A DNA stretch of 49,693 nucleotides from assembly GCA_945871065.1 (NCBI GenBank), contig CAMBUL010000009.1, positions 1-49,693 of the forward strand, in the 5' to 3' direction. This document shows, one piece after another, positions 609 through 40,194 of the stretch. The DNA comes from Chthoniobacter flavus (GTDB taxonomy: Bacteria > Verrucomicrobiota > Verrucomicrobiia > Chthoniobacterales > JACTMZ01). A program made the position numbers and the translations under genes. A model generated the notes under the pieces. It was not told the origin of the DNA. It saw only the letters and a program-made list of their open reading frames with translations, and searched no databases. Within the stretch, counting starts at the first letter, position 1, and each line of letters opens with the position of its first letter.

Positions 609-626
609 TGTGACGGAAAGTTCACA
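609..626 (+). promoter_or_regulatory. TGTGA-N8-TCACA palindrome, copy 1
   Basis: The site reads TGTGACGGAAAGTTCACA, with exact TGTGA and TCACA arms and an 8-base spacer. It lies 19 bp after the porin stop and before a doubtful small reading frame and a terminator. It belongs to the ten-copy motif set described in the findings. The binding protein is unknown. Confidence 0.55.
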
Positions 627-627
627 A

Positions 628-774
628 TTGCCTGCCTTGCCCGGGCGCGCGGGCGCGCTCATAACCCGCCCCGTACTGGGACGCCTCTGCGCCATCTTCA
701 TTTTCTCGGCCGCGGCCGCCGTGTCCGGCGCCGGTTTCGCCGCCCACCGCTTCCGCCGCCGCGCGCGCCGCTGA
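628..774 (+). CDS. Possible small membrane peptide (doubtful)
   Basis: A short frame ends in a hydrophobic stretch (LCAIFIFSAAAAVSGAGF) followed by a basic tail (HRFRRRARR) and stop. This is the layout of a one-helix membrane peptide, and it loosely resembles the hydrophobic-plus-Arg end of a sorting tail. It lies between a copy of the repeated palindrome and a strong terminator, as a small transcription unit would. There is no ATG; TTG at 628 is used here because GTG at 610 lies inside the palindrome. No homologue is recognised. The segment could equally be the 3' untranslated region of the porin gene. Confidence 0.2.
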   Translation: MPALPGRAGALITRPVLGRLCAIFIFSAAAAVSGAGFAAHRFRRRARR

Positions 775-798
775 TTTTTCCGTCCGGCTTTCCACCCA

Positions 799-831
799 CA
801 GGCGCCTTGGCAACAAGGCGCCTGTTTTTTT
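799..831 (+). terminator. Rho-independent terminator
   Basis: An 11-bp perfect stem (CAGGCGCCTTG / CAAGGCGCCTG) closes a GCAA tetraloop and is followed by seven T. It ends transcription from the porin gene and any small unit at 609-774. The loop is the same as in the terminator at 5389. Confidence 0.9.
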
Positions 832-890
832 ACGGCGTGAGTTCAACGCGGCTCTTCGCCCCGAACGAGCCGGCCTTTGGCGCGGCTGCT

Positions 891-908
891 TGAGACAAAA
901 AAGTCACA
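891..908 (+). promoter_or_regulatory. TGTGA-N8-TCACA palindrome, copy 2
   Basis: The site reads TGAGACAAAAAAGTCACA: one mismatch in the left arm, an exact right arm and an 8-base spacer. It ends 50 bp before the ATG of the PhoD/UshA fusion, so it probably lies in that gene's promoter. Confidence 0.6.
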
Positions 909-958
909 AATATTTCTTTGCGCACGCGGGAACCCCGCTTTCCCTCACAACAATTTCC

Positions 959-3900
959 ATGAAAAACCACCGCCCTTTCAGTGCATTCATCCGCCAAGTT
1001 CTCCCTAGCCTGCTGTTCCTCTCCGGCTTGCTCAACACCGTGTGCTTGGCCCAGCTCGGAGCCTCCTCTTTTCCGTACGGGGTCGCATCCGGAGACCCGC
1101 ACACCGACTCCGTAATGCTCTGGACCAAGTTCGAGCCCGGTGGAAATCCCCAGTTGACCTACGATATTGCCTGGGAGGTCTCCACTTCCCGCACTGACTT
1201 CTCCGCACCGGTCGCGTCCGGCACACATCAGACCAGCTCGAGCAACAACTTCACGGTCAAGGTTGTTGCCGAGGGCCTCCAACCCGGCACCGAATACTTC
1301 TACCGCTTCTCCGGCTACGGGGCGGTTTCCGAAGTGGGCCGGACGAAAACCTTGCCCAGCGGGTCGGTCAACCAAGTCCGCCTCGCCCTCTTCAGTTGCG
1401 CCAACATCACGGCCGATGCCTTTTACGCCTACGCCAAAGCAGCCCGCAAAGGTGACTTCGACGCCCTCGTGCAGGTCGGCGATTATATTTACGAATACGG
1501 CCCCGGTGGCTACCCGGCGGCGGAAACTCTCGCCGCCACCGTGGGCTTCGAGCCGAACAAAGAATGCGTTACGCTCGAAGACTACCGCACCCGCTACGCC
1601 CAATACCACAAACAGGCCTCGCTTCGCGCTGCGCGCGCCTCCGCGCCGCTCATCTGCATGTGGGATGACCACGAAACGGCCAATGATGCTTACAAGGATG
1701 GTGCGGAAAACCATAACCCGGCGACCGAAGGTTCCTGGACCGACCGTGTCAACGCCGCCTTGCAGGCCTACTATGAATGGATGCCGGTCCGCGAACCCGG
1801 CTCGGGCAACCGCAAGGAGGCCTACCGGTCTTTCGACTTCGGCGACCTTGTTTCCCTCCATATGCTGGAAACCCGTCTCCTCGCCCGGGTCAGGCAGCTG
1901 TCCCTCGCGCCGAACACCGCACAGGTCACGACCCGCATCGGGCAAATCCTCGGAGATCCTGCCCTTCTGCAGTCCTACTCGACGGCGCTCGGGCTAGCCC
2001 CGTCTGATCCCGCCTTCGCCCCCGCCCTGCAATCGGCCGTGGTCGGCGAATTGGTCTATGCCAATGTGGTCGAAATGTATTCCGGTGACCGCGACCTCCT
2101 CGGCGCGACCCAGCTCAGATGGCTGCAGAACGAGATGGCCACCTCGCCCGCCGCCTACCAGGTCGTCGGCTCGCAGACCCTCATGGGCAACATGACCCTG
2201 CCCGGCGAACTCCTGCTCGAATTGGCCGACGGCACGGTCAACCCCGCGACCATCGAAAAATATCTTACCCCCGTGGCCAAGATGGCCGCCGGCGTTCCCT
2301 TCGCCTCGCTCACTCCGGCCGAGCAAGCCGTTTACACCAATGCGAATCCCTTGCCCTACAACGATGACTCGTGGGACGGCTATGGCAAGGAACGGGAAAC
2401 CATCCTGCAAACTTCGCTGGCTCTCGGCAAAAAACTCTTTGTGCTCTCCGGAGACACCCACAACGGGTGGCTCAACAAACTGAAAACCATGTCGCCCACC
2501 AGACCTGGCGTGTCTCCGCAGGGCACGGTCGCCGGCATTGAACTGGCCACGCCCGGTGTTTCCGCGCCCGGCATCGAGAAGTATTTCCCCGGACAGGAAG
2601 ATATTCTCCGCCAGCTCTTCCTCGGCTACAGCTCGGGCACGCAATTCGCCAACCTGGCCGACCGCGGTTTCCTCGACTTGACCTTCACTCCGGATAATGT
2701 CGCCGCCAAGTTTTACTTCAAGCAGACCGGGGCCGGACAAAAAGACTGGAAAGTGCAATCCGTGGACATCGCCGCCACTGCCGCGACCACGCCCGTTGTC
2801 GCCGCCACCACCACCGAGGAGAACGACTACAGTCTGCAAATCCTCCACGCCTCGGATATGGAAGCGGATGTCGTCTCTCTCGAAACCGCGCCCCGCTTTG
2901 CAGCGCTCGTTGATAAACTCGAAGACAGCGCCGAGGTGGACGCCTCTGTGACGATTGCTGCCGGTGACACCTTTATCCCCGGCGCTTTCCTGTCTGCCGG
3001 CAATGATTCGAGCGTTAAAGCCCCGCTCAAGGCTGCCCTCGGTCAGCTCTTTGGCTTCAACGGATCAAGTACCGATCTGCGCGAAAGTTCGGGTCGCCCA
3101 GACATCGCCATCCTCAACGCCATCGGCTTCGACGCTTCCTGCCTCGGCAACCACGAGTTCGACCTTGGCTCGACCGAGTTGGGCAGCATCATCCTCCCCG
3201 ACGTGCGCGGCACCCTCGGAAATATGCGCAACTACGGCGCAGCGTTCCCTTATCTTAGCGCCAACCTCGACTTCAGCGGCGAGTCGGTCCTCGCGGCCCG
3301 CACCACCGCCGCAATTCTCCCGGTCTCGCGCTTCCGCGCCAACCCATCGACCGACGCGTCCTACGTTAGAACCGCTTCGGCCGACATCGCTTCACATCCC
3401 AAAATCGCCAAAGCCGCCATCATCGAACGTGGGGGCGAAAAAATCGGCGTGCTTGGCGTGACCCCGCCCGACTTGGCCAACATCTCGTCGCCCGGCCGCG
3501 TTGTCGTGACCGGACCGCAGGGCGCCACCCTGGTCAGCCCGCGCCAGTATGACCTTGACGGCCTCGCCGCTCATCTCCAACCGGTCATCGACAGCCTCAA
3601 GGCCAACGGCTGCAACAAGATCATCCTCGCCACCCAACTGCAGCAGATCGAAAACGAAAAGGGCCTCGCCGGGAAACTGGCCGACGTCGACGTCATCGTG
3701 GCCGGCGGCTCCGGCACCATCTATGCCAATGATTCGGACAATCTCCTGCCCGGTGACACCGCGGCGGGGGGATATCCGTTCCTCACCACCGACCGGAATG
3801 GCAACCAGGTGGCCATCGTCAGCACCGAGGGTCAATACCAGTACCTTGGCCAACTCCTCGTCGACTTCAACGCCAATGGCGAGGTGGTTGGCACCGGTGG

Positions 3901-5365
3901 CGATACCTTGGCCGCCACGGCGGCCCAGGTGGAGGAACTTTGGGGCTCCGATCGCAATGCCCCCTACGCCGAAGGAACACGTGGTGGTGCAGTCAAAGGG
4001 CTGACCGATGCGGTTGGCGCGGTGATCAGCGCGAAAGATGGTCTCATTCTCGGCAAGTCCTCCGTCTTCCTCGAAGGACGCCGAAGCGCGGTCCGCCAGC
4101 AGGAAGTTAACTTCGGCAACCTTTCGGCCGATGCCAACCTCTGGTATGGCCGGCAGTACGACAGCACCGTCCGCGTCTCGCTCAAGAACGGCGGCGGTAT
4201 CCGCAATGCCATCGGCAGCATCGATGCCGAGGGCAATCCCCAGCCGACCAAGGCTAACCCTTCCGCAGGGAAAGCCGCGGGCGAGATTTCCCGCCTCGAC
4301 ATCGAGGACTCGCTGAAATTCAACAACTCCCTCAGCCTACTCACCGTCAAGGCGTCGCAACTCAAGTATCTCTTGGAGCACGGCGTGGCCGGCAATAACG
4401 GCACCGGGGTGGACAAAAACACGCCCGGCCAGTTCAGCCAACTCGGCGGCATCGTCGCGGTGGTGGATCTTTCCCAGACGGCACAAACTTACACCTCCTT
4501 GGCCAATGTCATCTCCACCGTCAATCCCGGTCATCGCATCCGCTACGCCGCGTTGACCGACGCCTCGGGAAAACTGACCGATGTGATTATTGCCAACGGG
4601 GTGGTGCTCGAGCCCGACCGTCTCATCCGCATGGTCACACTCGGTTTCCTGGCCACCGCGGGGGCAGTGGGCTCGGACTTCGGTGGCGACAGCTATCCCT
4701 TCCCTTACATCCAGCGGCTCAATGGCGCGGAAAGTTATGACCGCAAGGATCTCAACTCCGGCTCGCTTGCGCCTGCTCTCCCCGGCAGCTTCCCGGCGCT
4801 GAGCTCGTTCGCCACCGCTGGCACCGAGCAGGATGCCTTCGCCGAATACCTGCTCGCTTTTCACGCCACCAGGCCCTTCGGCCTGGCCGAGACGGCCGTC
4901 GATCTCGATCGCCGTATCGTGCAAGGCACGGCGGACAGCGACAATGACGGCTACAGCAATGCGGAGGAAACTTCGCTCTACACCGTGGGCATGGATGCCG
5001 ATGTCGCCGCCACGGCCGGGCAGGTCAATGCCCTCGGCCGTATCCGCGCGGTCGGGCGGGCCGAGGTCACAGCCAACCCGTTGCTCTACAGTCTCTACAC
5101 AGCGGACCAATTAAATACCGAACGCCTGGCCGGCCGGAACGACGTGACCTCGAATCCTTCGGCTTACAGCCTCTTCACCGGACCGCAGGCCGATGTCCGC
5201 CTCGATGGACTCGTCCTGCCCGTCTCCGCATCGGGCACCCTAAGCATGAAACTCCAGTCGTCGGACAACCTCGACATCTGGACTGATGTCGCCGTGGTGC
5301 CGGACGTGCAGATCAATCTGAGCGGACCGAACAGGTTCTTCCGCTTTCAGGCTGTGGCACAGTGA
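959..5365 (+). CDS. Secreted PhoD phosphodiesterase / UshA-like 5'-nucleotidase fusion
   Basis: This 1468-residue exported protein has two phosphoesterase modules. ATG 959 is chosen because it starts a clear signal peptide (MKNHRP..., hydrophobic core LPSLLFLSGLL, cleavage near VCLAQ). Residues ~38-610 are PhoD-like: YGVASGDPHTDSVMLWT, SCAN (~146), VQVGDYIYEYG, WDDHETAND (235) and SGDTHNGWL (~497). Residues ~622-1230 are a metallophosphatase plus 5'-nucleotidase C-domain: ILHASDMEAD (628), AAGDTF (668), GNHEFD (730) and SLKNGGGIRN. In the first motif the usual D-x-H reads D633-M-E635. Residues ~1325 on carry a DSDNDGYSNAEE calcium-type loop and a C-terminal beta domain common in Verrucomicrobia. 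The expected role is phosphate release from phosphodiesters and nucleotides outside the cytoplasm. A terminator follows. Confidence 0.9.
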   Translation: MKNHRPFSAFIRQVLPSLLFLSGLLNTVCLAQLGASSFPYGVASGDPHTDSVMLWTKFEPGGNPQLTYDIAWEVSTSRTDFSAPVASGTHQTSSSNNFTVKVVAEGLQPGTEYFYRFSGYGAVSEVGRTKTLPSGSVNQVRLALFSCANITADAFYAYAKAARKGDFDALVQVGDYIYEYGPGGYPAAETLAATVGFEPNKECVTLEDYRTRYAQYHKQASLRAARASAPLICMWDDHETANDAYKDGAENHNPATEGSWTDRVNAALQAYYEWMPVREPGSGNRKEAYRSFDFGDLVSLHMLETRLLARVRQLSLAPNTAQVTTRIGQILGDPALLQSYSTALGLAPSDPAFAPALQSAVVGELVYANVVEMYSGDRDLLGATQLRWLQNEMATSPAAYQVVGSQTLMGNMTLPGELLLELADGTVNPATIEKYLTPVAKMAAGVPFASLTPAEQAVYTNANPLPYNDDSWDGYGKERETILQTSLALGKKLFVLSGDTHNGWLNKLKTMSPTRPGVSPQGTVAGIELATPGVSAPGIEKYFPGQEDILRQLFLGYSSGTQFANLADRGFLDLTFTPDNVAAKFYFKQTGAGQKDWKVQSVDIAATAATTPVVAATTTEENDYSLQILHASDMEADVVSLETAPRFAALVDKLEDSAEVDASVTIAAGDTFIPGAFLSAGNDSSVKAPLKAALGQLFGFNGSSTDLRESSGRPDIAILNAIGFDASCLGNHEFDLGSTELGSIILPDVRGTLGNMRNYGAAFPYLSANLDFSGESVLAARTTAAILPVSRFRANPSTDASYVRTASADIASHPKIAKAAIIERGGEKIGVLGVTPPDLANISSPGRVVVTGPQGATLVSPRQYDLDGLAAHLQPVIDSLKANGCNKIILATQLQQIENEKGLAGKLADVDVIVAGGSGTIYANDSDNLLPGDTAAGGYPFLTTDRNGNQVAIVSTEGQYQYLGQLLVDFNANGEVVGTGGDTLAATAAQVEELWGSDRNAPYAEGTRGGAVKGLTDAVGAVISAKDGLILGKSSVFLEGRRSAVRQQEVNFGNLSADANLWYGRQYDSTVRVSLKNGGGIRNAIGSIDAEGNPQPTKANPSAGKAAGEISRLDIEDSLKFNNSLSLLTVKASQLKYLLEHGVAGNNGTGVDKNTPGQFSQLGGIVAVVDLSQTAQTYTSLANVISTVNPGHRIRYAALTDASGKLTDVIIANGVVLEPDRLIRMVTLGFLATAGAVGSDFGGDSYPFPYIQRLNGAESYDRKDLNSGSLAPALPGSFPALSSFATAGTEQDAFAEYLLAFHATRPFGLAETAVDLDRRIVQGTADSDNDGYSNAEETSLYTVGMDADVAATAGQVNALGRIRAVGRAEVTANPLLYSLYTADQLNTERLAGRNDVTSNPSAYSLFTGPQADVRLDGLVLPVSASGTLSMKLQSSDNLDIWTDVAVVPDVQINLSGPNRFFRFQAVAQ

Positions 5366-5677: not shown

Positions 5678-5695
5678 TGTAACAAATAGTTCACT
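5678..5695 (+). promoter_or_regulatory. TGTGA-N8-TCACA palindrome, copy 3
   Basis: The site reads TGTAACAAATAGTTCACT, with one mismatch per arm and an 8-base spacer. It lies 45 bp upstream of the zinc-ribbon gene (minus strand) and 121 bp upstream of the sigma factor gene. The A-rich spacer strand matches the sigma factor direction. It is the weakest copy. Confidence 0.45.
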
Positions 5696-5745
5696 ATCAG
5701 CAACATGAGATTGTGATGGCAAGGCCGGAAATTGGCCGACCGGGG

Positions 5746-5763
5746 TGTGGCGAAATTTTCACA
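5746..5763 (+). promoter_or_regulatory. TGTGA-N8-TCACA palindrome, copy 4
   Basis: The site reads TGTGGCGAAATTTTCACA: one mismatch in the left arm, an exact right arm and an 8-base spacer. It ends 53 bp before the chosen sigma factor ATG at 5817. A possible upstream GTG start (5745) overlaps the site, which argues against that start. Confidence 0.6.
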
Positions 5764-5816: not shown

Positions 5817-6704
5817 ATGCTCCCCAGCTACTTTCACGAAATCAGCCTCGTTCCGCTTTTGAGCTTGGAGGAAGAAACGGCGTTGGCGGAACGGGTGCAA
5901 GCGGGGTGCGAGGCGGCCCGGCACCGCATGATTGTGGCCAACTTGCGTCTTGTCGTGAAAATCGCCGGTGAATTCGTCCATCGGGGGGTGCCGCTCGACG
6001 ACCTTATTTCCGAAGGCAACCTCGGGCTGATCCGGGCGGTGGAAAAATTCCGCCCTCAAAAAGGCGGCAAATTCAGTTCCTATGCCGCGTGGTGGATTCG
6101 CCAGGCCATCCACCGCGCGCTCGGTGAGCAAAATCACGTCGTTCGGCTGAGCCCGCTCGCCATGAGCAAACTGTCCAAGCTCCGTCGCATCGCGCACAGC
6201 ATGTCGGATGCCCTCGGCCGCGAACCAACCGACGAGGAGTTGTCCGATGAACTCGGACTGGAGGCCGTCACGGTGACCAACCTCAAGAACGTGGCGGCCC
6301 GCCCGGCCTCGATGGACTCTTTGCTTTCCGGAGAGGTCGGGGCCACCCTGGGAAGTCTGCTCGTCGACGAACAAGCCGAGGACCCTCTAGAGGCGCTGAG
6401 CGGCAAAGATCTGAGGGACAAAGCAGGGGAATTGCTCACCGTGCTGAAAAGCAGGGAGCGGGCGGTTGTCGTCCGCCGTTTCGGTTTGGACGGACACCAA
6501 CCCATGACCCTCGAGCTGATCGGCGCGGAACTCGGCTGCACCCGGGAAAGGGCGAGGCAAATTCTGGAGGACGCCCTCAAGCGGATGCGGCGCACTTTTT
6601 CCCGCCACCAGTCGCGGCAGTTCCTGCGAGTGGTGGCGGCCAACCCTCTCCGGTCACCCGGCGCAGCCACCATACTGCTTCCTCCTGCCCGCTGTGCGGC
6701 CTAA
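5817..6704 (+). CDS. Group 2 RNA polymerase sigma factor (sigma-70 family)
   Basis: The 295-residue product has regions 1.2 to 4.2 of a primary-like sigma factor but no long region 1.1. Region 1.2 is SYFHEISLVPLLSLEEE. Region 2 has ANLRLVVKIA, DLISEGNLGLIRAVEKF and FSSYAAWWIRQAIHRAL. Region 3 has RLSPLAMSKLSKLRRIA, and region 4 has REPTDEEL-type spacing then CTRERARQILEDALKRMRR. This fits a group 2 (SigB/RpoS-like) factor that recognises sigma-70-type promoters under stress or stationary conditions. ATG 5817 gives the standard N-terminus; the upstream GTG 5745 adds 24 residues with no family match and overlaps the palindrome. The last ~30 residues are not family-conserved. No anti-sigma gene is adjacent. 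Confidence 0.92.
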   Translation: MLPSYFHEISLVPLLSLEEETALAERVQAGCEAARHRMIVANLRLVVKIAGEFVHRGVPLDDLISEGNLGLIRAVEKFRPQKGGKFSSYAAWWIRQAIHRALGEQNHVVRLSPLAMSKLSKLRRIAHSMSDALGREPTDEELSDELGLEAVTVTNLKNVAARPASMDSLLSGEVGATLGSLLVDEQAEDPLEALSGKDLRDKAGELLTVLKSRERAVVVRRFGLDGHQPMTLELIGAELGCTRERARQILEDALKRMRRTFSRHQSRQFLRVVAANPLRSPGAATILLPPARCAA

Positions 6705-9585: not shown

Positions 9586-10293
9586 TCAGGCGTCCTCTTC
9601 GGCCAGGAAGAGGTAGCCTTCCCCGTGCACGGTTTGGAGGCGGGCTTGGTGCGGCTTGAGCTTGGCCCGCAACCGGCGGACGTGGGTATCCACGGTGCGG
9701 CTGCTGCTCATGTTGCGGTAGCCCCAGACGTCATGGAGCAGAGTTTCCCGGGTCAGCACCTGTCCGCGCTTTTCCATCAAGGCCACGAGGAGCCGGAATT
9801 CGAGTGCGGTCAGGTCGAGCTTGCGCCCGCCCAATCGCACTTCGAAAGTTGCCCGGTCGAGAGCAAAGGGCCCGACCTGGAGCTGCTCGCCGGAATTGGA
9901 GGTGCGGGATTTTTGGATAAGCAAGCGGAGCCGCAGGACGAGTTCTCGAGGGCTGAAAGGTTTGGTCAGGTAATCGTCGGCACCCAACTCGAGACCGGCC
10001 ACACGGTCCTCGGGCCGGGCTTTGGCCGTGAGCATGATGACCGGAATCCGGGCGGTGACCTCGCGCGCGCGCAACTGACGGCAAACATCCTCGCCCCGCA
10101 TCTCCGGGATCATCAGGTCGAGCACCACGGCCGCGGGTAATTTTTCCCGCGCCAATCTCAGGCCTGCCAAGCCGTCGGAAGCTTCGATCACGACGAAACC
10201 TTCTTTGCGCAAATGCAATCGAATCAGGTCGAGAACGTCGGGCTCGTCCTCGATGATCAGAACAACGTCTTTTGGAGGCGATTTGGCGGGCAT
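9586..10293 (-). CDS. OmpR/PhoB-family response regulator
   Basis: The 235-residue product has a receiver domain (1-~120): acidic pair E15/D16 in VLIIEDEPDV, phospho-acceptor D59 in VVLDLMIPE, T89 in MLTA and K111 in YLTKPFSPREL. A winged-helix DNA-binding domain (~135-235) follows, with LTALEFRLLVALMEKRGQVLTRETLL, SRTVDTHVRRLRAKL and TVHGEGYLF. ATG 10293 gives the standard start. No histidine kinase is adjacent, so it is an orphan within this window. It is divergent from the LpxH-like gene, and a copy of the repeated palindrome lies 75 bp upstream. PhoB-type control of phosphate genes is possible, given the phosphatase genes here, but nothing shows it. Confidence 0.93.
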   Translation of the reverse strand: MPAKSPPKDVVLIIEDEPDVLDLIRLHLRKEGFVVIEASDGLAGLRLAREKLPAAVVLDLMIPEMRGEDVCRQLRAREVTARIPVIMLTAKARPEDRVAGLELGADDYLTKPFSPRELVLRLRLLIQKSRTSNSGEQLQVGPFALDRATFEVRLGGRKLDLTALEFRLLVALMEKRGQVLTRETLLHDVWGYRNMSSSRTVDTHVRRLRAKLKPHQARLQTVHGEGYLFLAEEDA

Positions 10294-10368
10294 GCGACGT
10301 TTGGCGCTCCATAGCTTCCTCGCAATGTCGGTTCTAACAGCGCGCCGCCCTCCGGGCCAATCAATATC

Positions 10369-10386
10369 TGTGACGAAATTGTTACA
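10369..10386 (+). promoter_or_regulatory. TGTGA-N8-TCACA palindrome, copy 5
   Basis: The site reads TGTGACGAAATTGTTACA: an exact left arm, one mismatch on the right and an 8-base spacer. It lies between divergent genes, 48 bp from the LpxH-like ATG and 75 bp from the response regulator ATG, so one dimer could control both. Confidence 0.6.
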
Positions 10387-10434: not shown

Positions 10435-11193
10435 ATGATGACCCACCGCGCGGGCTGGATTTCCGATGTGCATCTCGGCACCCGGGGTTGCCAAGCCGAT
10501 GTCTTGCTCGAATTTCTCCGCGACCACGAATTCGAGACGCTCTATCTGGTCGGCGACCTGATCGATATCTGGTCCTTGCGCCGGCGCCGTTACTGGCCGC
10601 AGTCCCACAGCGACGTCGTGCAAAAACTCCTGCGTAAGGCACGCAAGGGCACCCGGCTAATCTATATTCCGGGAAACCATGACGAATTTGTCGCGGAATT
10701 TCCCGGTGATTTCGGCAATATCGAAATCATGCCGCGCGCCGTCCACCGGACGTGGGACGGACGCAAAATCCTCGTCATCCACGGCCACGAGTTGGATACC
10801 GTGGTGCAGAACATGGGGTGGCTGGCGCACGTCGGCGGGCTGGGCTACGAACTACTGCTGCAGGCGAACCATCCGGTGCATTGGGTGCGCCACCGGCTCG
10901 GCCTCGCGCCGTGGTCGCTGAGCGCCTACGTCAAATCACGAGTCAAAAATGCGGTGAACTTCATCAGCGACTTCGAGGAAGCGATGGCCCGTTACGCGCA
11001 GGATGCCGGCGCCAGTGCGGTCCTCTGCGGGCACATCCACATGCCGTCCGTGCGCCGAATCGGAGAGCTCAGCTATTACAATTGCGGCGATTGGGTCGAG
11101 CATTGCACCGCTTTGGTCGAGAACCGTGACGGAAAGATCGAACTGCTGCGCCTGCGCGATTCCGCGGCGGCCGTCGCCGCGACTTCGCTGTAA
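10435..11193 (+). CDS. LpxH-like UDP-2,3-diacylglucosamine diphosphatase / metallophosphoesterase
   Basis: The 252-residue calcineurin-like metallophosphoesterase carries all core motifs: SDVHLGT (D11, H13), VGDLIDIW, PGNHDEF, IHGHELD and CGHIHMP near the end. The order, length and the WSLRRRRYWP segment fit COG2908, whose members hydrolyse UDP-2,3-diacylglucosamine to lipid X in lipid A synthesis at the inner-membrane surface. No other lpx gene is near, so another phosphoesterase role in the same family cannot be excluded. ATG at 10435 or 10438 (MMTHR) are both possible. It converges on the arsenic operon with a 31-bp gap. Confidence 0.82.
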   Translation: MMTHRAGWISDVHLGTRGCQADVLLEFLRDHEFETLYLVGDLIDIWSLRRRRYWPQSHSDVVQKLLRKARKGTRLIYIPGNHDEFVAEFPGDFGNIEIMPRAVHRTWDGRKILVIHGHELDTVVQNMGWLAHVGGLGYELLLQANHPVHWVRHRLGLAPWSLSAYVKSRVKNAVNFISDFEEAMARYAQDAGASAVLCGHIHMPSVRRIGELSYYNCGDWVEHCTALVENRDGKIELLRLRDSAAAVAATSL

Positions 11194-14559: not shown

Positions 14560-14577
14560 TGTGACCAAAATGTCACA
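14560..14577 (+). promoter_or_regulatory. TGTGA-N8-TCACA palindrome, copy 6
   Basis: The site reads TGTGACCAAAATGTCACA, with both arms exact and an 8-base spacer. It lies 76 bp before the ATG of the giant exoprotein and 175 bp from the small lipoprotein start. Confidence 0.65.
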
Positions 14578-14653: not shown

Positions 14654-17600
14654 ATGGGTCTCCACTTACACTGTTACCAGCGCCACCGCGGCCTAATCCG
14701 GGCCGCACAAAAGCGCAGCTCGCTCAATGGTCTGATTGCGGTCGGTCTGGTCTTGACTTTGACCTCTCCGACCTACGCTGGTCGCAACGTTTTCGGGGCG
14801 GGCGGGGCTTCTGCGGGCAACCGTGATGCGGTGCGCGCTCAGGCTTATGCCGACAGCCAAGCCAATGCTTTGCGCGTCCAGGCTGCCGCCCGCGAGAGAT
14901 TGGCCCGCTCCACCCAGGCATTCCAAGGCATGCAAGGGGCCCAGGCGGCGGCGCGGGCCTCGGCCGCGGCGCTCAACAATGTGGCCAATGGATTGGTTCC
15001 CGGCGGACTCGAAGTTCTCGCCGGCAGCGAGGCCCGCTGGGACGGCGCGGACGCCCCGGCCGCGACGGGCAACAGCGTGAACATCAAACAGAACAGCGCG
15101 CAGGCTGTTTTGCACTGGAAAACGTTCAATGTCGGTCGCGACACCACGGTCAACTTCGACCAGTCGCAAGGCGGGGCCGATGCCGGCAAGTGGATCGCCT
15201 TCAACAAAGTCTTCGATCCCGCCGCCGCCCCTTCGCAAATCCGCGGCCGCATCAACGCGCAAGGCCAGGTTTATATCATCAACCGCAACGGCGTGATTTT
15301 CGGCGGGACAAGCCAGATCAACACCCGCGGCTTCGTCGCCTCCTCGCTGCCGGTCAACGACAACCTGGTCCGTGATGGCCTGCTCAACAATAAGGATGCC
15401 CAATTTATTTTTTCCGGTCTCCGCGTGCCCGGAGGCAGCGACGGTACCCCGGCTTTCGAGCCTCCAGTGCTGGCTCCCGGTGAAAAATACGGCGACATTG
15501 TGGTCGAGCGCGGGGCGCGTTTGCAAGCTACCGCCGGGCAGGACGGCAATGGCGGGCGCGTTATGCTCGTCGGGGCGAATGTCTTCAACGACGGCACGAT
15601 CGACACGCCGGCCGGCCAGACCATTCTCGCGGCCGGCTTGCAGGTCGGCGTGCGCGCGCACCCGGAAAACGATCCCAGCCTGCGCGGTCTCGATGTCTGG
15701 ATCGGCCAAGTCGGCGACTATGCCGGCACCGCGGTCAATTCCGGCCTCGTTCAGTCTTCCACCGGCAGCATTGTGATGGCCGGCAAAGAGGTCAAACAGC
15801 GTGGCGTCCTGGCCAGCACAACATCGGTCAACCTCAACGGCCGCATCGATCTCTTGGCCAGCTACGGGGCGGTGGGCAATCCGAATTTCGACCGGTTTGC
15901 CGGGTCGACCCAGCCGCCTTTCCTTTCACAGTTCACCGGCACGGTGGAAATGGCGGCCGGGAGCGCGACCTCCATTCTGCCCGATGCGAACGGGAAAAAA
16001 CTTCCGGGCTCCCGCTTGTCCGAAAACTCTCAAGTCAACCTCGAGGGCCGGAGCATTCATTTCGGACCAGGCTCGGTCCTCATCGCGCCCTCGGGTGACG
16101 TCTCGGTGCGCGCCGGACTGTGGCCGTTCGTCGATTCTGACGGCGACGGCACGGTGCTGGGTATCGGTGGCAGCGACCAACAGGGTCTAAGCCAACATTT
16201 CACCTCCGGCGGCCAGAAGTTTCTCTCGGAGGGGGGGCAAGTTTATTTCGATGAAGGCTCCATCATCGACGTCAGCGGCTCGGTCAACGGTTTCGTCCCG
16301 TTGGCCCAGCACCTCCTTATGGTGCAAATGCGCAGTTCCGAGTTGGCGGATTCTCCCCTGCAGCGCAATTCGGCTTTGCGCGGGGTTCCTTTGATTGTCG
16401 ACCTGCGGGAGACCGGGGTGGATTCCGGACGATCCTGGGTCGGCACGCCCCTTGGTGATCTCACCGGATACTTGTCGATCATCGAGCGCGACATCGCGCA
16501 ACTCACGGCCCGTGGCGGCACAGTGTCGGTGTCGGCCGGCGATTCCATTGTGCTCGGATCCGGGGCCTCGATCGACGTCTCCGGCGGCTTGTTGACCCAC
16601 GGAGCAGGGTATGTGCGGACCTCCATGTTGTCGTTGGGCGGTCGCGCCGTGCCGATCAGCTCGGCCTATGCCGACATCAATTACGACGGGGTTTACACCG
16701 GCACCCGCACAGTCACTTCGAAGTGGCGCGCTACGCAGACCTACTCCGCTGGTATCTTCAATCCGGCCAAGGGCTACAACCAAGATTCTTATTTCGAAGG
16801 AGCCCCGGCCGGGACGGTGTCCTTGTCGGCACCCTCGGTGGCGCTGAACGGGAAACTTGTCGGTAAGACTTATATTGGCCCGAACCAGCAAGAGACCCCC
16901 CCGGCCCTTGGCTCCTTGCGCCTGGCCTTCCTCGGCGAGAAAAATGCGGGGTCATTGACCGCACCGATCTTTGTCAACCATGCGCCGTTCGCCCCGGAGT
17001 TTCGCCTGGTCAACGGTCGCACCCCGGCGGTTTCGTTACCACGGTTTGAATTGGTCGACGGGGAGCCGGTCGCCTTGCCCCAATCCCTGCGCGAAACCTT
17101 CACCTTGGGAACGGCTGTTTTCGAGGAGGAAGACGGTGGTTTCGGCAATCTGATGGTCGAAAACGCCGATGGGGATTTCGTCGTCCCAGCTGGCACCTCG
17201 CTGCGGTTACGTCCCGGGGGAGGGCTTGAAGTCGCGGCGAAAAATGTGCGGATAGACGGTAGCATCACGGCACCAGGTGGAAGCGTGGCCCTTACGGCCT
17301 ACAATTTCTCGCCTTACCTTTACGCCGAGTTGTCGGCCACTGGGGCTCTTGCCTTGCAGCCGGCGCCCGCGGTGCAGGCCGGGCGTGGGACCGTGGCCTT
17401 GCGGCCCGGTTCGGTGATTGACGTGGCCGGCATGATGGTGGACGACCGTTTTGCCGGAGAAGGACATGCCTTCAACGGAGTACTGACCGACGGCGGCTCT
17501 ATCCGCCTGGAGGGCTATGCGGTGCAGCTCCCCGCCGGCTCGGTTCTTGACGCGAGCGGTGGTGTTTACGGCCATGGCGCGGACGATTATGACTTTGGCC

Positions 17601-30547: not shown

Positions 30548-30565
30548 AGTGACAAAAAATTCACA
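30548..30565 (+). promoter_or_regulatory. TGTGA-N8-TCACA palindrome, copy 7
   Basis: The site reads AGTGACAAAAAATTCACA, with one mismatch in the left arm and an 8-base spacer. It lies 129 bp before the ATG of the PEP-CTERM gene, the longest distance in the set. Confidence 0.6.
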
Positions 30566-30694
30566 ATCTTTTGCTCCCGCCGCCCCGTCCGGCTGTGCAT
30601 ATTGCTGCTGTCAAAAAGACAAAACTCTCACCTTCCACCGAAACCCAAGGCAATTCCTTCACTCCTCTCTCAAACAACCAACCCAAAAAAATCC

Positions 30695-31675
30695 ATGAAA
30701 ACACTACCTCGCAAATTACGCACGCTCGCGCTTGCTGCTGGAACTCTCGCGGTCACGGCAACAGGGGCTAAAGCCGCCCAAGCCGGTACTTACGCCGCCA
30801 ACGACCTGCTTATGTTTTTCCAAAACCCATCCGCAACCGGAGGAACAGTCGGTCTATCAGATGTCGTTTACTTCAATCTCGGCAGCACGTTCAATGTGTT
30901 CCGCGATGCGGCCACGCCAAGCTCGGGAGCTTTTGGTTCCACCATCTCCTTGGGCAACATCAACAGCATTCTGACCTCAAGTTACGGAGCGGACTGGACG
31001 GGTCTATCCTCCTCGATCTTCTTCGGGGCCAATGGTCAGAACGGCTCGACGTCGGCAGCCAACACATCCACGTCAAACGGCGATTTTGCGCGCACTGTGT
31101 ACATCACCAAGGCGCGCACGTCCGTTGGTTCCGTTGGCCAAGCCAACTCGGTTTCCCCTCTATACGCCCCCTCGCAGACGGCTGTGGCCGGCCAAATCGC
31201 AGGAGCCAATGCTATCAGTGGCATGACCCAACCGGGGGTTGTGGCCGTTGGTGATACTCTACTCGACGGCTACAACCCGTTTTTCAATGGCGCCCCGGCC
31301 AATGCTTACAGCGACGTCATTCCCGGCGGCTTGGTGAATAACATCAGCAGCACAAGAACTTCCTTAGGTTCTATCTCCAATATTGTGGGTGCGCTTGATC
31401 TTTATCGTGTCGCCAAAACGAGCGGAACCGGAACGACGAGCGCGTCCATCTGGCAAAACTCCAACAACATCATAGCAACATATTCCAACAACTTCGGAGT
31501 GGGTGGGGGTGGCTCCGCTGCCGCCTACTACCTCGGCACCATCACGCTTGGTGACAACGGCGACGTCAATTTCACCGCTGTTCCTGAGCCGTCCACCTAC
31601 GCTTTGCTCGCTTTGGCCGCGGCCGGCCTGGGTGCGCATGTCATCCGTCGCCGTCGCCGTCAAGCGAATGCCTAA
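30695..31675 (+). CDS. PEP-CTERM surface protein, long copy of a duplicated pair
   Basis: The 326-residue exported protein has a signal peptide (RKLRTLALAAGTLAVTATGAKAAQA), a Ser/Thr/Gly/Asn-rich body (ANDLLMFFQNP, DVVYFNLGSTFNVFRDAA) and the PEP-CTERM tail VPEPSTYALLALAAAGLG ... RRRRRQ. It should be processed by exosortase and exposed at the surface. Residues ~25-295 are nearly identical, at DNA level too, to the product of 35207-36511, which has a different C-terminus. ATG 30695 starts directly before the signal peptide. The PstS-like gene follows after 45 bp in the same direction and is probably co-transcribed. Confidence 0.9.
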   Translation: MKTLPRKLRTLALAAGTLAVTATGAKAAQAGTYAANDLLMFFQNPSATGGTVGLSDVVYFNLGSTFNVFRDAATPSSGAFGSTISLGNINSILTSSYGADWTGLSSSIFFGANGQNGSTSAANTSTSNGDFARTVYITKARTSVGSVGQANSVSPLYAPSQTAVAGQIAGANAISGMTQPGVVAVGDTLLDGYNPFFNGAPANAYSDVIPGGLVNNISSTRTSLGSISNIVGALDLYRVAKTSGTGTTSASIWQNSNNIIATYSNNFGVGGGGSAAAYYLGTITLGDNGDVNFTAVPEPSTYALLALAAAGLGAHVIRRRRRQANA

Positions 31676-34010: not shown

Positions 34011-34970
34011 TCAGTCAATTTTGGGATCAGCTGTTTTGTTTTCTGAAAGCCCCTTAGTAGGCTCTTTTTTCTGAACGTCTCCCCGAGCTTTAGTGCGGAT
34101 CAGCTGCCGAGCGACATCAGCACGAGCCCGTTGAGCCAGATCAGGGGGAATAGACATAAAGATTTCCTTGAGTGTTTTATCAGCCAGAGGCTCGCTTTGG
34201 TCCACGGCCATGTAGAGCCACATCAGGGCCTCTTGACGGTTTTCGCTGGCCGGCGATTCAACTCCCATCAAATGCGCGAGGTTGGATTGACCCTTGGCAT
34301 CACCCTGCTCAGCGGATCGGCGAAACCATAGCATGGCTCGCTCGCGGTCCTTATAGCGCGCTTCTGGTCCCAGACCTTGCCGGCAGATGATACCCATCTT
34401 GTTTTGGCAGGCAGGATTGCCCGCCTCGGCGGCTTTGAGGACGAGGGGATAAGCCTTCTCGCGGTCAGGCATCATGAGAGCGTCTCCGAGAAAGTAAACT
34501 TGCCCAACGGTAGCCACCGCATCCGGGTCGCCAGAGGCAGCGGCTTTATCGAGCCACTCAAGGCTCTCCTCGTGATTGCGCTCGATGGTCTTACCCTGCC
34601 GAAGCATGAGACCGAGATTTAGTTGCGATTTGGCTGATCCAGCCGCGGCTCCTCTGCGGAACCATTCCAGAGCTTTGGCTTCGCTCTTTTTCACGACTAT
34701 ACCATTGAAGTGGAAATAACCCATGCTGGTGATCGCGTCCGTGTTGCCTTGTTCGGCAGATTTTTCGATCCACTCGAGCGCTTTCTTTTCGTCTTTCGGC
34801 ATGCCCTCTCCCCGGAAGTAAGCTCGGCCCAGTTGAAATTGGGCCCCCGCGTCTCCGGCTGCCGCGGCGGTCGCGAGCTCTTGCAGGTCGGTTGAGTCGG
34901 CGTCCTTTGCTGCGTGGACAAGCTGCACGGACAAGACGGCCAAGGCAACGGTGAGGGTTCTTAGATTCAT
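34011..34970 (-). CDS. Periplasmic Sel1-repeat (SLR) protein
   Basis: The 319-residue product has a signal peptide (RTLTVALAVLSVQLVHA) and about six Sel1/TPR-like repeats of ~36 residues. Typical lines are AQFQLGRAYFRGEGMPKDEKKALEWIEKSAEQG, written here in part only (LGRAYFRGEG, ALEWIEKSAEQG), and LNLGLMLRQGK, MLWFRRSAEQG, SNLAHLMG. Sel1 repeats form solenoids that bind other proteins; many exported ones act in envelope processes. A copy of the repeated palindrome lies 36 bp upstream, the closest in the set. The C-terminus is charged and probably disordered. Confidence 0.9.
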   Translation of the reverse strand: MNLRTLTVALAVLSVQLVHAAKDADSTDLQELATAAAAGDAGAQFQLGRAYFRGEGMPKDEKKALEWIEKSAEQGNTDAITSMGYFHFNGIVVKKSEAKALEWFRRGAAAGSAKSQLNLGLMLRQGKTIERNHEESLEWLDKAAASGDPDAVATVGQVYFLGDALMMPDREKAYPLVLKAAEAGNPACQNKMGIICRQGLGPEARYKDRERAMLWFRRSAEQGDAKGQSNLAHLMGVESPASENRQEALMWLYMAVDQSEPLADKTLKEIFMSIPPDLAQRARADVARQLIRTKARGDVQKKEPTKGLSENKTADPKID

Positions 34971-35006: not shown

Positions 35007-35024
35007 TGTGACTTTTTTGTCACT
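35007..35024 (-). promoter_or_regulatory. TGTGA-N8-TCACA palindrome, copy 8
   Basis: In gene orientation the site reads AGTGACAAAAAAGTCACA, with one arm mismatch and an 8-base spacer. It lies 36 bp before the Sel1-repeat ATG. Its spacer is all A except for the flanking C and G. Confidence 0.62.
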
Positions 35025-35150: not shown

Positions 35151-35168
35151 TGTGACAAAATGTTCACG
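35151..35168 (+). promoter_or_regulatory. TGTGA-N8-TCACA palindrome, copy 9
   Basis: The site reads TGTGACAAAATGTTCACG: an exact left arm, one right-arm mismatch and an 8-base spacer. It lies 38 bp before the start of the duplicated surface protein. It is separated from copy 8 by 126 bp, so each divergent gene has its own site. Confidence 0.62.
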
Positions 35169-35206: not shown

Positions 35207-36511
35207 ATGCGATCTATGTATAGCACCCTTCGTTCCACTGTCTGCTTGGTCGCCTTTACTTGGCTCGTATTTTCCGCGCAGGGTAAAGCCGCACAAGCCG
35301 GCACTTACGCCGCCAACGACCTGCTTATGTTTTTCCAAAACCCATCCGAAACCGGAGGAACAGTCGGTCAATCAGATGTCGTTTACTTCAATCTCGGCAG
35401 CACGTTCAATGTGTTCCGCGATGCGGCCACGCCAAGCTCGGGAGCTTTTGGTTCCACCATCTACTTGGGCAACATTAACAGCATTTTGACCTCAAGTTAT
35501 GGAGCGAACTGGACGGATCTGTCCTCCTCGATCTTTTTCGGGGCCAACGGTCAGAACGGCTCGACGTCGGCAGCCAATACATCCACGTTAAACGGCGATT
35601 TCGCGCGCACTGTGTACATCACCAAGGCGCGCACGTCCGTTGGTTCCGTTGGCCAAGCCAACTCGCTTTCCCCGCTGTACGCTCCCTCGCAGACGGCTGT
35701 GGCCGGCCAAATCGCAGGAGCCAATAATATTAGTGGCATGACCCAACCCGGGGTAGCGCTTTCGTCAGGCATCGGAGCAACTCTGCTCTCAGGCTACAAT
35801 CCGTTTTTCAATGGCGCTCCGGCCAACGCTTACAGCGACGTCATTCCCGGCGGGTTGATGGACAGCATCAGCAGCGCAAAAACTTCATTCGGTTCTATCT
35901 CCAACGTTGTGAGTGCGCTTGATCTTTATCGTGTCGCCAAAACGAGCGGAACCGGAACGACGAACGCGTCGATCTGGCAAAACTCCAACAACATTACGGC
36001 AACATATTCCAACAACTTCGGAGTGGCCGGGGGTGGCTCCGCGGCCGCTTTTTACCTTGGGACAATCACCCTCAGCTCCGATGGAGCAGTGAACTTCGTT
36101 GCTGCTGGGGGCTCGAGTGTCAGCGATTACACCGCATGGGCTGCGGAATATCCTGATGCCGACCTGACCGACAAGGAGGGAGACTACGACAAAGATGGCT
36201 TCAAAAATGTCGATGAATACGCCTTTGGGACCAATCCTACGTTGGGGAACACTGCGCTCTCTTCTGCCACGGTTGTGTCAAACAACCTGACTGTTGGCTT
36301 TTTCCGCCGCAGCACGGCCAACGACCAGGCGCCGGCCTACGCCGTGTTTTCCAGCACCGATTTGGGCAACGCGTTCACCAACAATGGCGCGAGCATCTCG
36401 ATCCTGACCAACGTTGCCCCCGCCGGATACCAAGCTGCCTCAGTTACCCAACCGGTGTCCGGCAGCAAAATCTTTTACCGCATCAAGGCGACACTGCCGC
36501 AGGAGAACTAA
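35207..36511 (+). CDS. Surface protein paralogue with DxDxDG/C-terminal beta domain instead of PEP-CTERM
   Basis: The 434-residue product has a signal peptide (RSTVCLVAFTWLVFSAQG), and residues ~26-300 are almost the same as the PEP-CTERM protein at 30695. After VNFVAA the sequence switches: SDYTAWAAEYPDADLTDKEG, then DYDKDGFKNVDEYAFGTNP, a calcium-type loop frequent in verrucomicrobial exoproteins, then a beta domain ending KIFYRIKATLPQEN. It has no PEP motif, no final helix and no Arg cluster, so it would be secreted or held in another way. ATG 35207 or 35216 are both possible. It is a recent duplicate with a swapped end. Confidence 0.88.
   Translation: MRSMYSTLRSTVCLVAFTWLVFSAQGKAAQAGTYAANDLLMFFQNPSETGGTVGQSDVVYFNLGSTFNVFRDAATPSSGAFGSTIYLGNINSILTSSYGANWTDLSSSIFFGANGQNGSTSAANTSTLNGDFARTVYITKARTSVGSVGQANSLSPLYAPSQTAVAGQIAGANNISGMTQPGVALSSGIGATLLSGYNPFFNGAPANAYSDVIPGGLMDSISSAKTSFGSISNVVSALDLYRVAKTSGTGTTNASIWQNSNNITATYSNNFGVAGGGSAAAFYLGTITLSSDGAVNFVAAGGSSVSDYTAWAAEYPDADLTDKEGDYDKDGFKNVDEYAFGTNPTLGNTALSSATVVSNNLTVGFFRRSTANDQAPAYAVFSSTDLGNAFTNNGASISILTNVAPAGYQAASVTQPVSGSKIFYRIKATLPQEN
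35282..36105 (+). repeat. Second copy of the duplicated segment at 30767-31578
   Basis: Long stretches are base-for-base the same in both copies, including synonymous positions (for example the segments encoding NDLLMFFQNPS and GSTFNVFRDAATPSS). Differences cluster near codons for MTQPGV-A and the 3' end. This indicates recent duplication or gene conversion over ~0.8 kb. Confidence 0.9.
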
Positions 36512-37692: not shown

Positions 37693-37704
37693 TAGGGATT
37701 GGGC

Positions 37705-38144: not shown

Positions 38145-38177
38145 TTCCCACCTCATCGAACAACTTTCAACTTTAGC

Positions 38178-38360: not shown

Positions 38361-38372
38361 TTGACCCTCTGC

Positions 38373-38612
38373 TCAGGCGCGGGCGAAGCGTTCGGCCAGC
38401 ACCACTTTGATCAGGCTTTGGTAGGGCACGTCGCGGCGGTTGGCCTCGCGTTTGATGGCGTGGAGCAATGGGGCCGGCATGCGCAGGGAGATAGTCTCGG
38501 TCGTGGGCTTGAGATCCGGAAACGCGACACGCTCCGCTTTGGACCAATCTAGCCCGCGACCCTGACGGGCGGGCATGGCGGGAACACGCAAGCGGTCAAC
38601 TTTGGTTTTCAT
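38373..38612 (-). CDS. brnA: BrnA-type antitoxin
   Basis: The 79-residue product has LDWSKAERVAFPDLKPTTETISLRMPAPLLHAIKREANRRDVPYQSLIKVVL (key blocks: FPDLKPTTETISLRMP, IKREANRRDVPYQSLIK), the pattern of BrnA/CopG-like antitoxins with a ribbon-helix-helix C-terminus. It binds BrnT and represses the pair's promoter. ATG 38612 overlaps the brnT 3' end by 17 bp, giving the toxin-first order typical of brnTA. Confidence 0.87.
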   Translation of the reverse strand: MKTKVDRLRVPAMPARQGRGLDWSKAERVAFPDLKPTTETISLRMPAPLLHAIKREANRRDVPYQSLIKVVLAERFARA

Positions 38613-38892
38613 AGATATTCCTTTCCTTGCGGCTCATAGGTCTGGCGGAAATGACGCGCAGTTTCGCGTCACGGACAGTGAAAGCAAGGTGGAGCAACCG
38701 CCCCTCGTCGGTGCGTCCGAGGGCGTGGTGACGCTCTTCGTCCGCGCTGTGCCGGGGGTCGGGCAGGACCAGCAGCGGGGCGTTCTGGAAAAGCTCCTCC
38801 GCCTCGCGGCAGCTGACACTGTGTTTCTGTGTGCTTTTGAGTGCATTTCCCTGGTCCCAATCGAAACCGACAATTCCGGTCCAATTGATCAT
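38596..38892 (-). CDS. brnT: BrnT-type ribonuclease toxin
   Basis: The 98-residue product has GFDWDQGNALKSTQKHSVSCREAEELF, ADEERHHALGRTDEGRLLHLAFTVRD and LRVISARPMSRKERNIYE (each a known BrnT block; the first is split from a longer run). BrnT is a RelE/BECR-fold RNase that inhibits translation. ATG 38892 is chosen because INWTGIVGFDWD is the usual beginning; the longer start would run across the operator-like repeat. It is intact. Confidence 0.88.
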   Translation of the reverse strand: MINWTGIVGFDWDQGNALKSTQKHSVSCREAEELFQNAPLLVLPDPRHSADEERHHALGRTDEGRLLHLAFTVRDAKLRVISARPMSRKERNIYENQS

Positions 38893-38900
38893 GAAGCTTA

Positions 38901-38921
38901 TGTATACGCTGGAGATATACA
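38901..38921. promoter_or_regulatory. Inverted repeat, probable brnTA operator
   Basis: TGTATA, nine bases, then TATACA lie 9 bp upstream of the brnT ATG. BrnA-type ribbon-helix-helix antitoxins bind such palindromes to repress their own operon. The arms are perfect. Confidence 0.55.
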
Positions 38922-38997
38922 AAAGTCAATGTCAGCGCAGGAAGGCACAGAAGTAGTGGATGCTCTTGTCCATGGGAATTTTTAGCCACAGTCGGAG

Positions 38998-39061
38998 GAA
39001 AAGCCGGAGACAGCCCGCTGCGGCGACTCGTCTCACCGGCTCTGCGCGGGTGGCCTTTTGC
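38998..39061. repeat. Partial dispersed 3'-end repeat, copy R5
   Basis: A short fragment, GCGGCGACTCGTCTCACCGG then CTCTG, matches the GGCGACCCGTCTCGCAGACTC part of R3 with several differences. It lies directly after the stop of the minus-strand gene at 39062. Confidence 0.4.
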
Positions 39062-40117
39062 TCAAAACTCCTCGGCTAGCCCCGGCCGTGTGCGGTAGGG
39101 GGCGAATGCGGGGTCGGCGAGGAGGTAGTTGTAAAGCTCGGGAGGCAAGGAAGCTCTTGCTTTCTGCAGGAACGCAGTGGCTTGTTCGTCTTCGCCAAGT
39201 CGCAATCCGAGGTAGGCGGCGGCAAACAGGTCGGCAGGGGCCGCAGCTTCCTGAGGTAACTGCGGCAGGGACCCGTCCTCCATCTCTTGCAACTCGAGGA
39301 GGCGCAAGGTCACGTCCACCGCGGCATGAGCGTCGATCGGTTGTAGGCGCAAGCGTGCCGATTTGAGCATTTCTTTAGCCCGGGCGTTGTCTCCGCGCAG
39401 TCGCCAGCGCATGGCCAATTCGAAGTAAGGAAACGGATTGGCCGGGTCTGCCGTGACGGCCTCGTGCAGCGAGCGCTCTGCGGCTGGCATGACATCACCG
39501 ATCGGCTTCCAACCTGCATCTCCCTCCGCCTGGGCTTCAAGAGATGCCCGCAGGGCGAGCGAATCGGAGACCCGCTCTCCTTTGGCCAGAGACATGGCGA
39601 TGGCCTCTTCGGCCTCTTCAATCTTGCCAGCTTGGAGAGCCGCGAGTCCGAGGAGGTAGTCAAGGGAAGGAATTCGAGGGTTTTCGTTCTGCACGCGGCG
39701 CAAGGAGCTAAGCGCGTGCGTGGCCATCCCTCCTCGCAGGTCGGAAAGGGCGCGCTCGATGGCTTCTTGTTGAGGACGGGTGATGAGCAGAATACCCTCA
39801 GAGGGTGGCGCATTTCGGGCGGCGGAGACAGGCGGGCTCTTGCTCTCGGTTATGGTGGCAGCGGCCAGCCACCAGGCAGCACCCAAGCCGCACGCCATCG
39901 AAAAAAATACCCCGGCAAGCACCCAAGGGAGGATTGGTTGCGGACGTTCCACCACAATGGGAGGCGCGGCGGTGCCGGCAGCAACCATCCGGGCGGCAGT
40001 CGTGGGCGGAGTCGCTCGCTGGGCCTTGGCGCTTCGCGCCCGCCGCACTTCTTCCAATGGTGCCACGGTCATACGGGGTCTAACCTTCAGCACTGGCTGG
40101 AATGAATCGGCTCTCAT
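39062..40117 (-). CDS. TPR-like single-span membrane protein, paralogue A
   Basis: The 351-residue product has a basic, disordered N-terminal ~60 residues, one helix (ILPWVLAGVFFSMACGLGAAWWLAAA), then an extracytoplasmic helical repeat domain: AIERALSDLRGGMATHALSSL, YLLGLAALQAGKIEEAEEAIAMSL, AAERSLHEAVTADPANPFPYFELAM. It ends in PELYNYLLADPAFAPYRTRP-GLAEEF. The repeats resemble TPRs and suggest a protein-binding scaffold in the periplasm. The next upstream gene is a paralogue sharing the end. A copy of the repeated palindrome is 59 bp upstream. Function unknown. Confidence 0.75.
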   Translation of the reverse strand: MRADSFQPVLKVRPRMTVAPLEEVRRARSAKAQRATPPTTAARMVAAGTAAPPIVVERPQPILPWVLAGVFFSMACGLGAAWWLAAATITESKSPPVSAARNAPPSEGILLITRPQQEAIERALSDLRGGMATHALSSLRRVQNENPRIPSLDYLLGLAALQAGKIEEAEEAIAMSLAKGERVSDSLALRASLEAQAEGDAGWKPIGDVMPAAERSLHEAVTADPANPFPYFELAMRWRLRGDNARAKEMLKSARLRLQPIDAHAAVDVTLRLLELQEMEDGSLPQLPQEAAAPADLFAAAYLGLRLGEDEQATAFLQKARASLPPELYNYLLADPAFAPYRTRPGLAEEF

Positions 40118-40176
40118 CGCTGTTTTGTTCGGCCGAAGGTTTCACCTTTCTCCGTACGGGTCGGAAAGATCGCAGT

Positions 40177-40194
40177 GGTGAAATTTTCGTCACA
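40177..40194 (-). promoter_or_regulatory. TGTGA-N8-TCACA palindrome, copy 10
   Basis: In gene orientation the site reads TGTGACGAAAATTTCACC: an exact left arm, one mismatch on the right and an 8-base spacer. It lies 59 bp before TPR paralogue A, so that gene is probably transcribed on its own rather than from paralogue B. Confidence 0.6.

Follow-up and report, generated by a model that had tools for sequence, protein, structure and literature searches.

Predicted Pho boxes ahead of phosphatase, sigma-factor and surface-protein genes in a contig of Chthoniobacter flavus

Which regulator reads the 18-bp motif that is found ten times in a contig of Chthoniobacter flavus (CAMBUL010000009.1, positions 1 to 49,693)? 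This whole stretch, 49,693 nucleotides long, is called the window. The first-pass annotation described the copies as a palindrome upstream of unrelated genes and considered them the sites probably of another regulator, left unnamed, than CRP or Rex, or of another spacing class. In the reading proposed here, the 18-mers are Pho boxes, to which PhoB, the response regulator for phosphate, would bind in tandem (probability about 0.93, on the basis of sequence comparison). The unnamed regulator becomes identifiable as PhoB, and the targets form a set of genes predicted to serve phosphate scavenging and of genes encoding surface proteins. A Pho regulon seen through predicted binding sites is of a known kind. 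Less expected are the form that the box appears to take in this lineage and its dense clustering with adhesin and PEP-CTERM genes. The reading offers a Pho-box model that can be applied to an order of bacteria, and a testable function for several unlabelled surface genes. It would also connect phosphate starvation with a giant adhesin and with PEP-CTERM proteins.

Ten sites in the noncoding DNA of the window

The sites are listed below with their predicted targets. G, C and L numbers, where given, refer to genomes, contigs and loci.

609..626, plus strand: predicted Pho box, TGTGACGGAAAGTTCACA; the next intact gene is that of the PhoD-type phosphatase at 959.
891..908, plus strand: predicted Pho box, TGAGACAAAAAAGTCACA; 50 bp ahead of the start codon (ATG) of the gene for the PhoD-type phosphatase.
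5678..5695, plus strand: weaker predicted Pho box, TGTAACAAATAGTTCACT (four mismatches); first of a tandem pair ahead of the sigma-factor gene, the pair being identical in G001 and G005.
5746..5763, plus strand: predicted Pho box, TGTGGCGAAATTTTCACA; ahead of the sigma-factor gene.
10369..10386, plus strand: predicted Pho box, TGTGACGAAATTGTTACA; 48 bp ahead of the metallophosphoesterase gene.
14560..14577, plus strand: predicted Pho box, TGTGACCAAAATGTCACA; 76 bp ahead of the giant adhesin gene.
30548..30565, plus strand: predicted Pho box, AGTGACAAAAAATTCACA; ahead of a PEP-CTERM protein gene.
35007..35024, minus strand: predicted Pho box, AGTGACAAAAAAGTCACA; ahead of a Sel1-repeat protein gene (34011-34970).
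35151..35168, plus strand: predicted Pho box, TGTGACAAAATGTTCACG; ahead of the gene 35207-36511.
40177..40194, minus strand: predicted Pho box, TGTGACGAAAATTTCACC; ahead of the gene 39062-40117, which has weak TPR matches.

The sites were confirmed to be real, intergenic and far beyond chance. A common 18-mer is present at all ten places. The consensus TGTGACRAAAWWKTCACA is matched with one or two mismatches at nine of them (0.01 expected from shuffles) and with four at 5678. None of the ten copies fits it exactly, so that what stands of the earlier claim of ten fitting sites is a related 18-mer. Likewise, the gap of 8 between TGTGA and TCACA that had been given for every copy is kept as a register, identical in all ten; the literal TGTGA-N8-TCACA is found in just two.

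The window is 90.6% coding according to 31 gene calls, whose start codons were chosen by the analysts. No site overlaps a called gene (chance about 5e-11), as had been proposed. If every frame were taken from its first possible start codon, some sites would come to lie within open frames, e.g. the sigma-factor frame opening at 5745. The best-scoring direction of each site is toward a gene that starts 36-121 bp downstream, except at 609, for which no target gene is clear; this upholds the earlier proposal of a directional site. The coding-density check suggested in the first-pass annotation was made within the window and did not refute the regulon. A matrix built from the ten sites gave, at 15 bits or more, 11 noncoding places (the ten and 38973) and no coding place. 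Ten first-order Markov sequences gave 0.4 places on average at this threshold.

The assembly (2.53 Mb, 120 contigs, 95% complete) contains 16 sites with two mismatches or fewer, and none for the reversed pattern; the window makes up 2% of the genome. Nine of the 16 are in this contig of about 50 kb (binomial, about 4e-12), a clustering that is overstated because the consensus searched for came from the window itself. When the spacer is left free (GTSAC-N6-KTSACA), the pattern is found at 15 separate places in the genome, including four in the window (binomial, 1.7e-4). Outside the window, boxes were found ahead of genes encoding a PHO4 transporter and a phytase-like enzyme. Across the order, the motif was found in 46 of 57 genomes, own genome included (208 matches; 17 with the pattern reversed). 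Within the genus (11 genomes), the corresponding counts are 79 and 0. Two sites of G009 and one of G010 (C1) were not among the sites fetched. Outside the genus, the loci examined were those of pstS, PiT, Amt, PhoD and TpsB.

Phosphate transporter genes and candidate regulators

Three transporter families were compared over 29 pstS, 30 PiT and 30 Amt loci (one per genome, a subset of all matches, the pstS of the own genome being excluded). The pair GTNAC-N6-GTNAC, whose count is free of window-matrix bias, occurs within 400 bp upstream of the match at 17 of the 29 pstS loci, 7 of the 30 PiT loci and none of the 30 Amt loci. Other gaps from 1 to 11 give no GTNAC pair at pstS, and gap 12 gives one. 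At the PiT loci, gaps 1, 9 and 11 give one pair each. With the window matrix (15 bits or more, within 500 bp), sites are found at 13/29 pstS, 7/30 PiT and 0/30 Amt loci (Fisher, 1.7e-5 and 0.005). Twelve of the 13 strong pstS sites are oriented toward the gene. Since different families of the order have GTNAC-N6-GTNAC ahead of pstS, the motif is not special to one lineage. Between the two possibilities raised earlier, a global regulon or a lineage-specific promoter element, the regulon is retained and the lineage specificity is not. Conservation upstream of orthologues, also suggested as a check, was examined in relatives and did not refute the regulon either: several orthologous promoters keep the box, two of them at the same distance.

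The PiT genes (PHO4 loci) are of two lengths. A site of at least 15 bits is found at 6 of 14 genes of the type of about 500 residues and at 1 of 16 of the shorter type.

The own genome has PhoB-, PhoR-, PhoU- and PstS-type genes. Two OmpR/PhoB-type DNA-binding domains were found in it at E 0.001, both nearest to the PhoB model. One of them is encoded in the window.

9586..10296, minus strand: PhoB-type response regulator, second PhoB paralogue; divergent from the gene at 10435.

The other is encoded on C27, beside a PAS-histidine kinase (PhoR/PnpS-like) and PhoU. The two regulators are 60% identical. Their segments SRTVDTH-RRLRAKL, taken here to be the recognition helix, differ by one residue.

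Another OmpR/PhoB-family regulator of GTNAC type (GlnR- or AfsQ1-like), responding to nitrogen or general stress, is an improbable reader of these sites. AfsQ1 is an OmpR-family regulator with a different signal and different targets. The Streptomyces AfsQ1 site, as described in passages of PMC6988585, is GTnAC-n6-GTnAC, i.e. identical in half-site and spacing to the motif analysed here. Such a regulator would also suit the finding that no kinase domain is present among the scanned neighbours of the PhoB-type regulator of the window. However, the ammonium transporter, a target of GlnR in Streptomyces (PMC5826061), is devoid of the pair at all 30 Amt loci, and neither of the two DNA-binding domains found in the genome is nearest to anything but PhoB.

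Half-site architecture, promoter distance and mechanism

The motif TGTGACR-AAAW-WKTCACA has a 7+4+7 build, in which GTGAC and KTCAC are 11 bp apart. The middle base of the half-site is mostly G in the first half and C in the second; an A-tract lies between them. A tandem repeat of the self-complementary half-site GTNAC describes the 18-mer better than the palindrome first proposed. GTNAC is in outline its own reverse complement, so that a direct repeat of it also resembles a palindrome; the asymmetry of the A-tract and the orientation toward the gene fit the tandem reading. The case shows how easily such a box is taken for a palindrome.

A symmetric dimer operator with an 8-bp gap, of CRP/FNR or Rex type, is very improbable. 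The arms TGTGA and TCACA do resemble those of CRP, and the columns score high for inverted symmetry (0.571). The CRP site is TGTGA-N6-TCACA (16 bp). The gap of 8 in register is two bases too long for it, as the first-pass annotation had rightly noticed; moreover, the A-tract is asymmetric, nearly all strong pstS sites point to the gene, and pstS and PiT are among the targets. The genome gives three marginal HTH_Crp_2 matches (28.7, 28.4 and 25.6 bits; cut-off, 27). A CRP/Rex-type operator was rejected on spacing, asymmetry and targets.

Distances to promoter elements were counted over 66 sites (90 sites reduced by flank similarity; some orthologous promoters remain). The base frequencies of this set lean to the window motif because the sites were collected with the window's own matrix. 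A TTG starts at +10 after the box in 16 of the 66 and at +9 to +11 in 20; the background is about 1.07 per offset and the largest count elsewhere is 4. The other 46 sites show no TTG at +9 to +11. TAnnnT peaks at +32 (7/66; mean, 0.5). As a proxy for the mapped transcription starts to which a fixed distance had been envisaged, these counts give a preferred distance to the core promoter, and one class of boxes is, on this evidence, followed by a -35-like element. The -35-like TTG and the -10-like excess lie separately downstream, so that the box looks additional to the core promoter. In Escherichia coli, the Pho box itself occupies the -35 position; the distance from box to -10 is here greater by about two helical turns. 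A core-promoter element that is specific to the lineage and is recognised, without any regulator, by an alternative sigma factor (e.g. that of the window) could account for the preferred distance to TTG and for a sigma-70 gene being itself a target, but is hardly credible in view of these separate downstream elements and of boxes at pstS and PiT with none at Amt.

The mechanism proposed for the Pho boxes is as follows. When phosphate, the presumed signal, is scarce, a PhoR-like kinase would phosphorylate PhoB. Two phosphorylated molecules of a PhoB-type regulator would then bind head-to-tail to the direct GTNAC half-sites, with a period of 11 bp; either of the two paralogues could be the one that binds. 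From a position some 10 bp ahead of the -35 element, PhoB would recruit RNA polymerase, acting as an activator rather than as a repressor. Phosphatases, phosphate uptake, the RpoS-like sigma factor and surface proteins, including the giant two-partner-secretion (TPS) adhesin, would be switched on.

Known Pho boxes share parts of this architecture. In Desulfovibrio vulgaris, the site upstream of por (GTTAC-N6-GTTAC in 18 bp) was bound by purified PhoB (DVU1083) in gel shift and binding was lost on substitution, according to passages of PMC6456213. GTNAC half-sites, N6 gap and 18-bp length are common to both. Here, unlike in Desulfovibrio, the middle base is mostly G then C with an A-tract between, and the boxed genes include those of a TPS adhesin and PEP-CTERM proteins. 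An earlier paper words the Desulfovibrio consensus as a 6-bp repeat, (c/t)GT(n)AC, whose units are separated by 4 bp (PMC3333781); this is one base short of the por site and of the window motif. Excerpts of PMC4832192 and PMC4415409 give CTGTCAT(A/T)4CTGTCAT, a direct repeat, for E. coli and GTTCACC-N4-GTTCACC for Streptomyces. The E. coli box has the same 18 bp, 7+4+7 build, A/T-rich spacer and 11-bp direct-repeat units; it differs by its half-site (CTGTCAT, not GTNAC) and by the -35-like TTG found here 10 bp downstream in one promoter class. Pho boxes have also been predicted near plcP genes in marine bacteria; the passages concerned state no Verrucomicrobia origin (PMC4796936).

Several results weigh against PhoB as the regulator. 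Both regulators score below the NCBIfam PhoB cut-off (221.7 and 222.2 versus 296.2), and the kinase, whose best models are PnpS and PhoR, is below both NCBIfam cut-offs. Column statistics fit inverted symmetry about as well as direct symmetry (0.534, shift 11), base composition being unable to separate the two. No site was found in 11 of the 57 genomes. The own genome has seven sites outside the window; two of them, on C7 and C67, point away from the start closest to them. The own pstS/phoU intergenic region has a weak site on C27 (13.6 bits), which faces phoU; in the C117 copy, a single base is different at this site and the score is below 9 bits, and a 16.4-bit match lies inside the pstS gene of C117. 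Four further members of the genus, G001, G005, G006 and G010, are below 15 bits ahead of pstS. A box of at least 15 bits was found at 1 of 24 PhoD-family loci, that of the window itself (24 of 26 rows were taken).

PhoD was rejected as a general target on this matrix count. In G021, a bare GTNAC-N6-GTNAC lies at a distance of 6 bp from the PhoD match. The pstS-phoU intergenic sequences of C27 and C117 are near-identical (L023:15710, L024:2432); C117 may be a strain variant within the assembly.

Boxed genes, surface island and TpsB block

The genes of the window that are discussed below are the following.

959..5365, plus strand: PhoD-like phosphatase with a 5'-nucleotidase C-terminal domain, 1468 aa.
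5817..6704, plus strand: RpoS-like sigma-70 factor; start deduced by comparison with its orthologue in G003; RpoS is the best model, with a score below cut-off.
10435..11193, plus strand: calcineurin-like metallophosphoesterase.
14654..26353, plus strand: giant TpsA adhesin, 3899 aa, with TPS secretion domain and DUF3739.
30602..31675, plus strand: PEP-CTERM protein, probable exosortase substrate.
35207..36511, plus strand: relative of the 30602 protein, without Pfam match.
41712..49693, minus strand: block encoding TpsB, ExbB, ExbD, TonB, Porin_5, a 222-aa protein and a PpiC-type isomerase (PPIase); TpsB, at 48524-49693 (also given as 48665-49621), is cut by the contig end.

Boxes are conserved within the genus (own genome counted in the next four totals). 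The metallophosphoesterase box is kept in six genomes (at 48 bp in five, 44 in one), that of the giant adhesin in four (76 bp in three), that of a weakly TamB-like gene in five and that of a phytase-like gene in three. The box of the PEP-CTERM gene (30548) is kept in G001, G003, G005 and G006 (the G005 gene being just 37% identical). The box of the Sel1 gene is kept in G003, G005 and G006, and that of gene 35207 in G001, G003 and G006. For the sigma factor, the box is kept in G001 and G003, and G005 has the identical box pair ahead of a sigma fragment.

The PhoD-type gene, with boxes 609 and 891, is located between an OprB-like gene and the sigma gene. It looks like an insertion or a loss, since these two genes are close together without it in G005 (L306) and G003 (L295). 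Downstream of box 609, a short frame (609-790) shows weak similarity to the beginning of the phytase-like protein that follows the box on C51 and is possibly a remnant. Box 609 may be the promoter of a decayed phytase-like gene, for which the match covers just 31 aa (42%, E 0.014).

A Pho box lies ahead of TpsB in G001, G003, G005 and G006, all four having pstS on the same contig. In G005, a single contig carries PEP-CTERM- and Sel1-like genes (34-37% identical), then GT2, PPIase, porin, TonB, ExbD, ExbB and TpsB genes (87-99%), then pstS. From this layout, the window probably adjoins the pst cluster. In G010, pstS is followed by parts of porin and PPIase genes; TpsB was not found there. The TpsB scan took 29 of 37 rows, three of which were unscorable (less than 120 bp upstream), and was run without a control family: a site of at least 15 bits was found within 1400 bp upstream of the match at 13 of the 26 scorable loci and at none of the other 13. 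Sites are in the same direction as TpsB in G001, G003, G005, G006, G020, G029, G045, G041 and one of the two G019 copies, and in the opposite direction in G018, G043, G016 and G033.

The domain order of the block, on which alone the two are likened, matches the hxc-pdt locus of Pseudomonas aeruginosa (pdtA, phdA, pdtB, exbB2, exbD2, tonB4, PA0696 porin, PA0697, PA0698, PA0699 PpiC). Production of PdtAB is under positive PhoBR control during phosphate starvation, according to passages of PMC5422565; the pdt genes are also controlled by the ECF sigma factor VreI, as reported in part of PMC7035377. Unlike in pdt, TpsA of the window has a box to itself and lies at a distance of about 22 kb, and a single gene (222 aa) occupies the place of two (PA0697/PA0698). 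Because the block shares the gene order of a Pho-controlled locus, the secretion module may be kept or exchanged together with its Pho control. The chances are judged even that, in the genus, phosphate starvation turns on a surface-remodelling island, partly contiguous with pst in one relative, which would comprise the TpsA adhesin, the TpsB-ExbB-ExbD-TonB-porin-PPIase block, PEP-CTERM proteins, the RpoS-like sigma factor and the second PhoB, and that a phosphate-responsive secretion module may be kept or exchanged in this way across distant bacteria.

Some minor observations concern these genes and the motif. The frame of the ExbB/TolQ channel protein (46588-49134) also holds DUF2341 and a laminin-G/concanavalin-like domain. 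In G006:C26 (L313), three boxed genes with a PEP-CTERM signal (one just below the Pfam cut-off) are near a boxed phytase-like gene. In G010:C34 (L323), a boxed PEP-CTERM gene has a lamin-tail domain. Sequences GTGACAAATNGTGACA, repeated on C68 (three) and C119 (one) (L040-L042, L045), have a gap one base shorter than that of the Pho box and constitute a local repeat.

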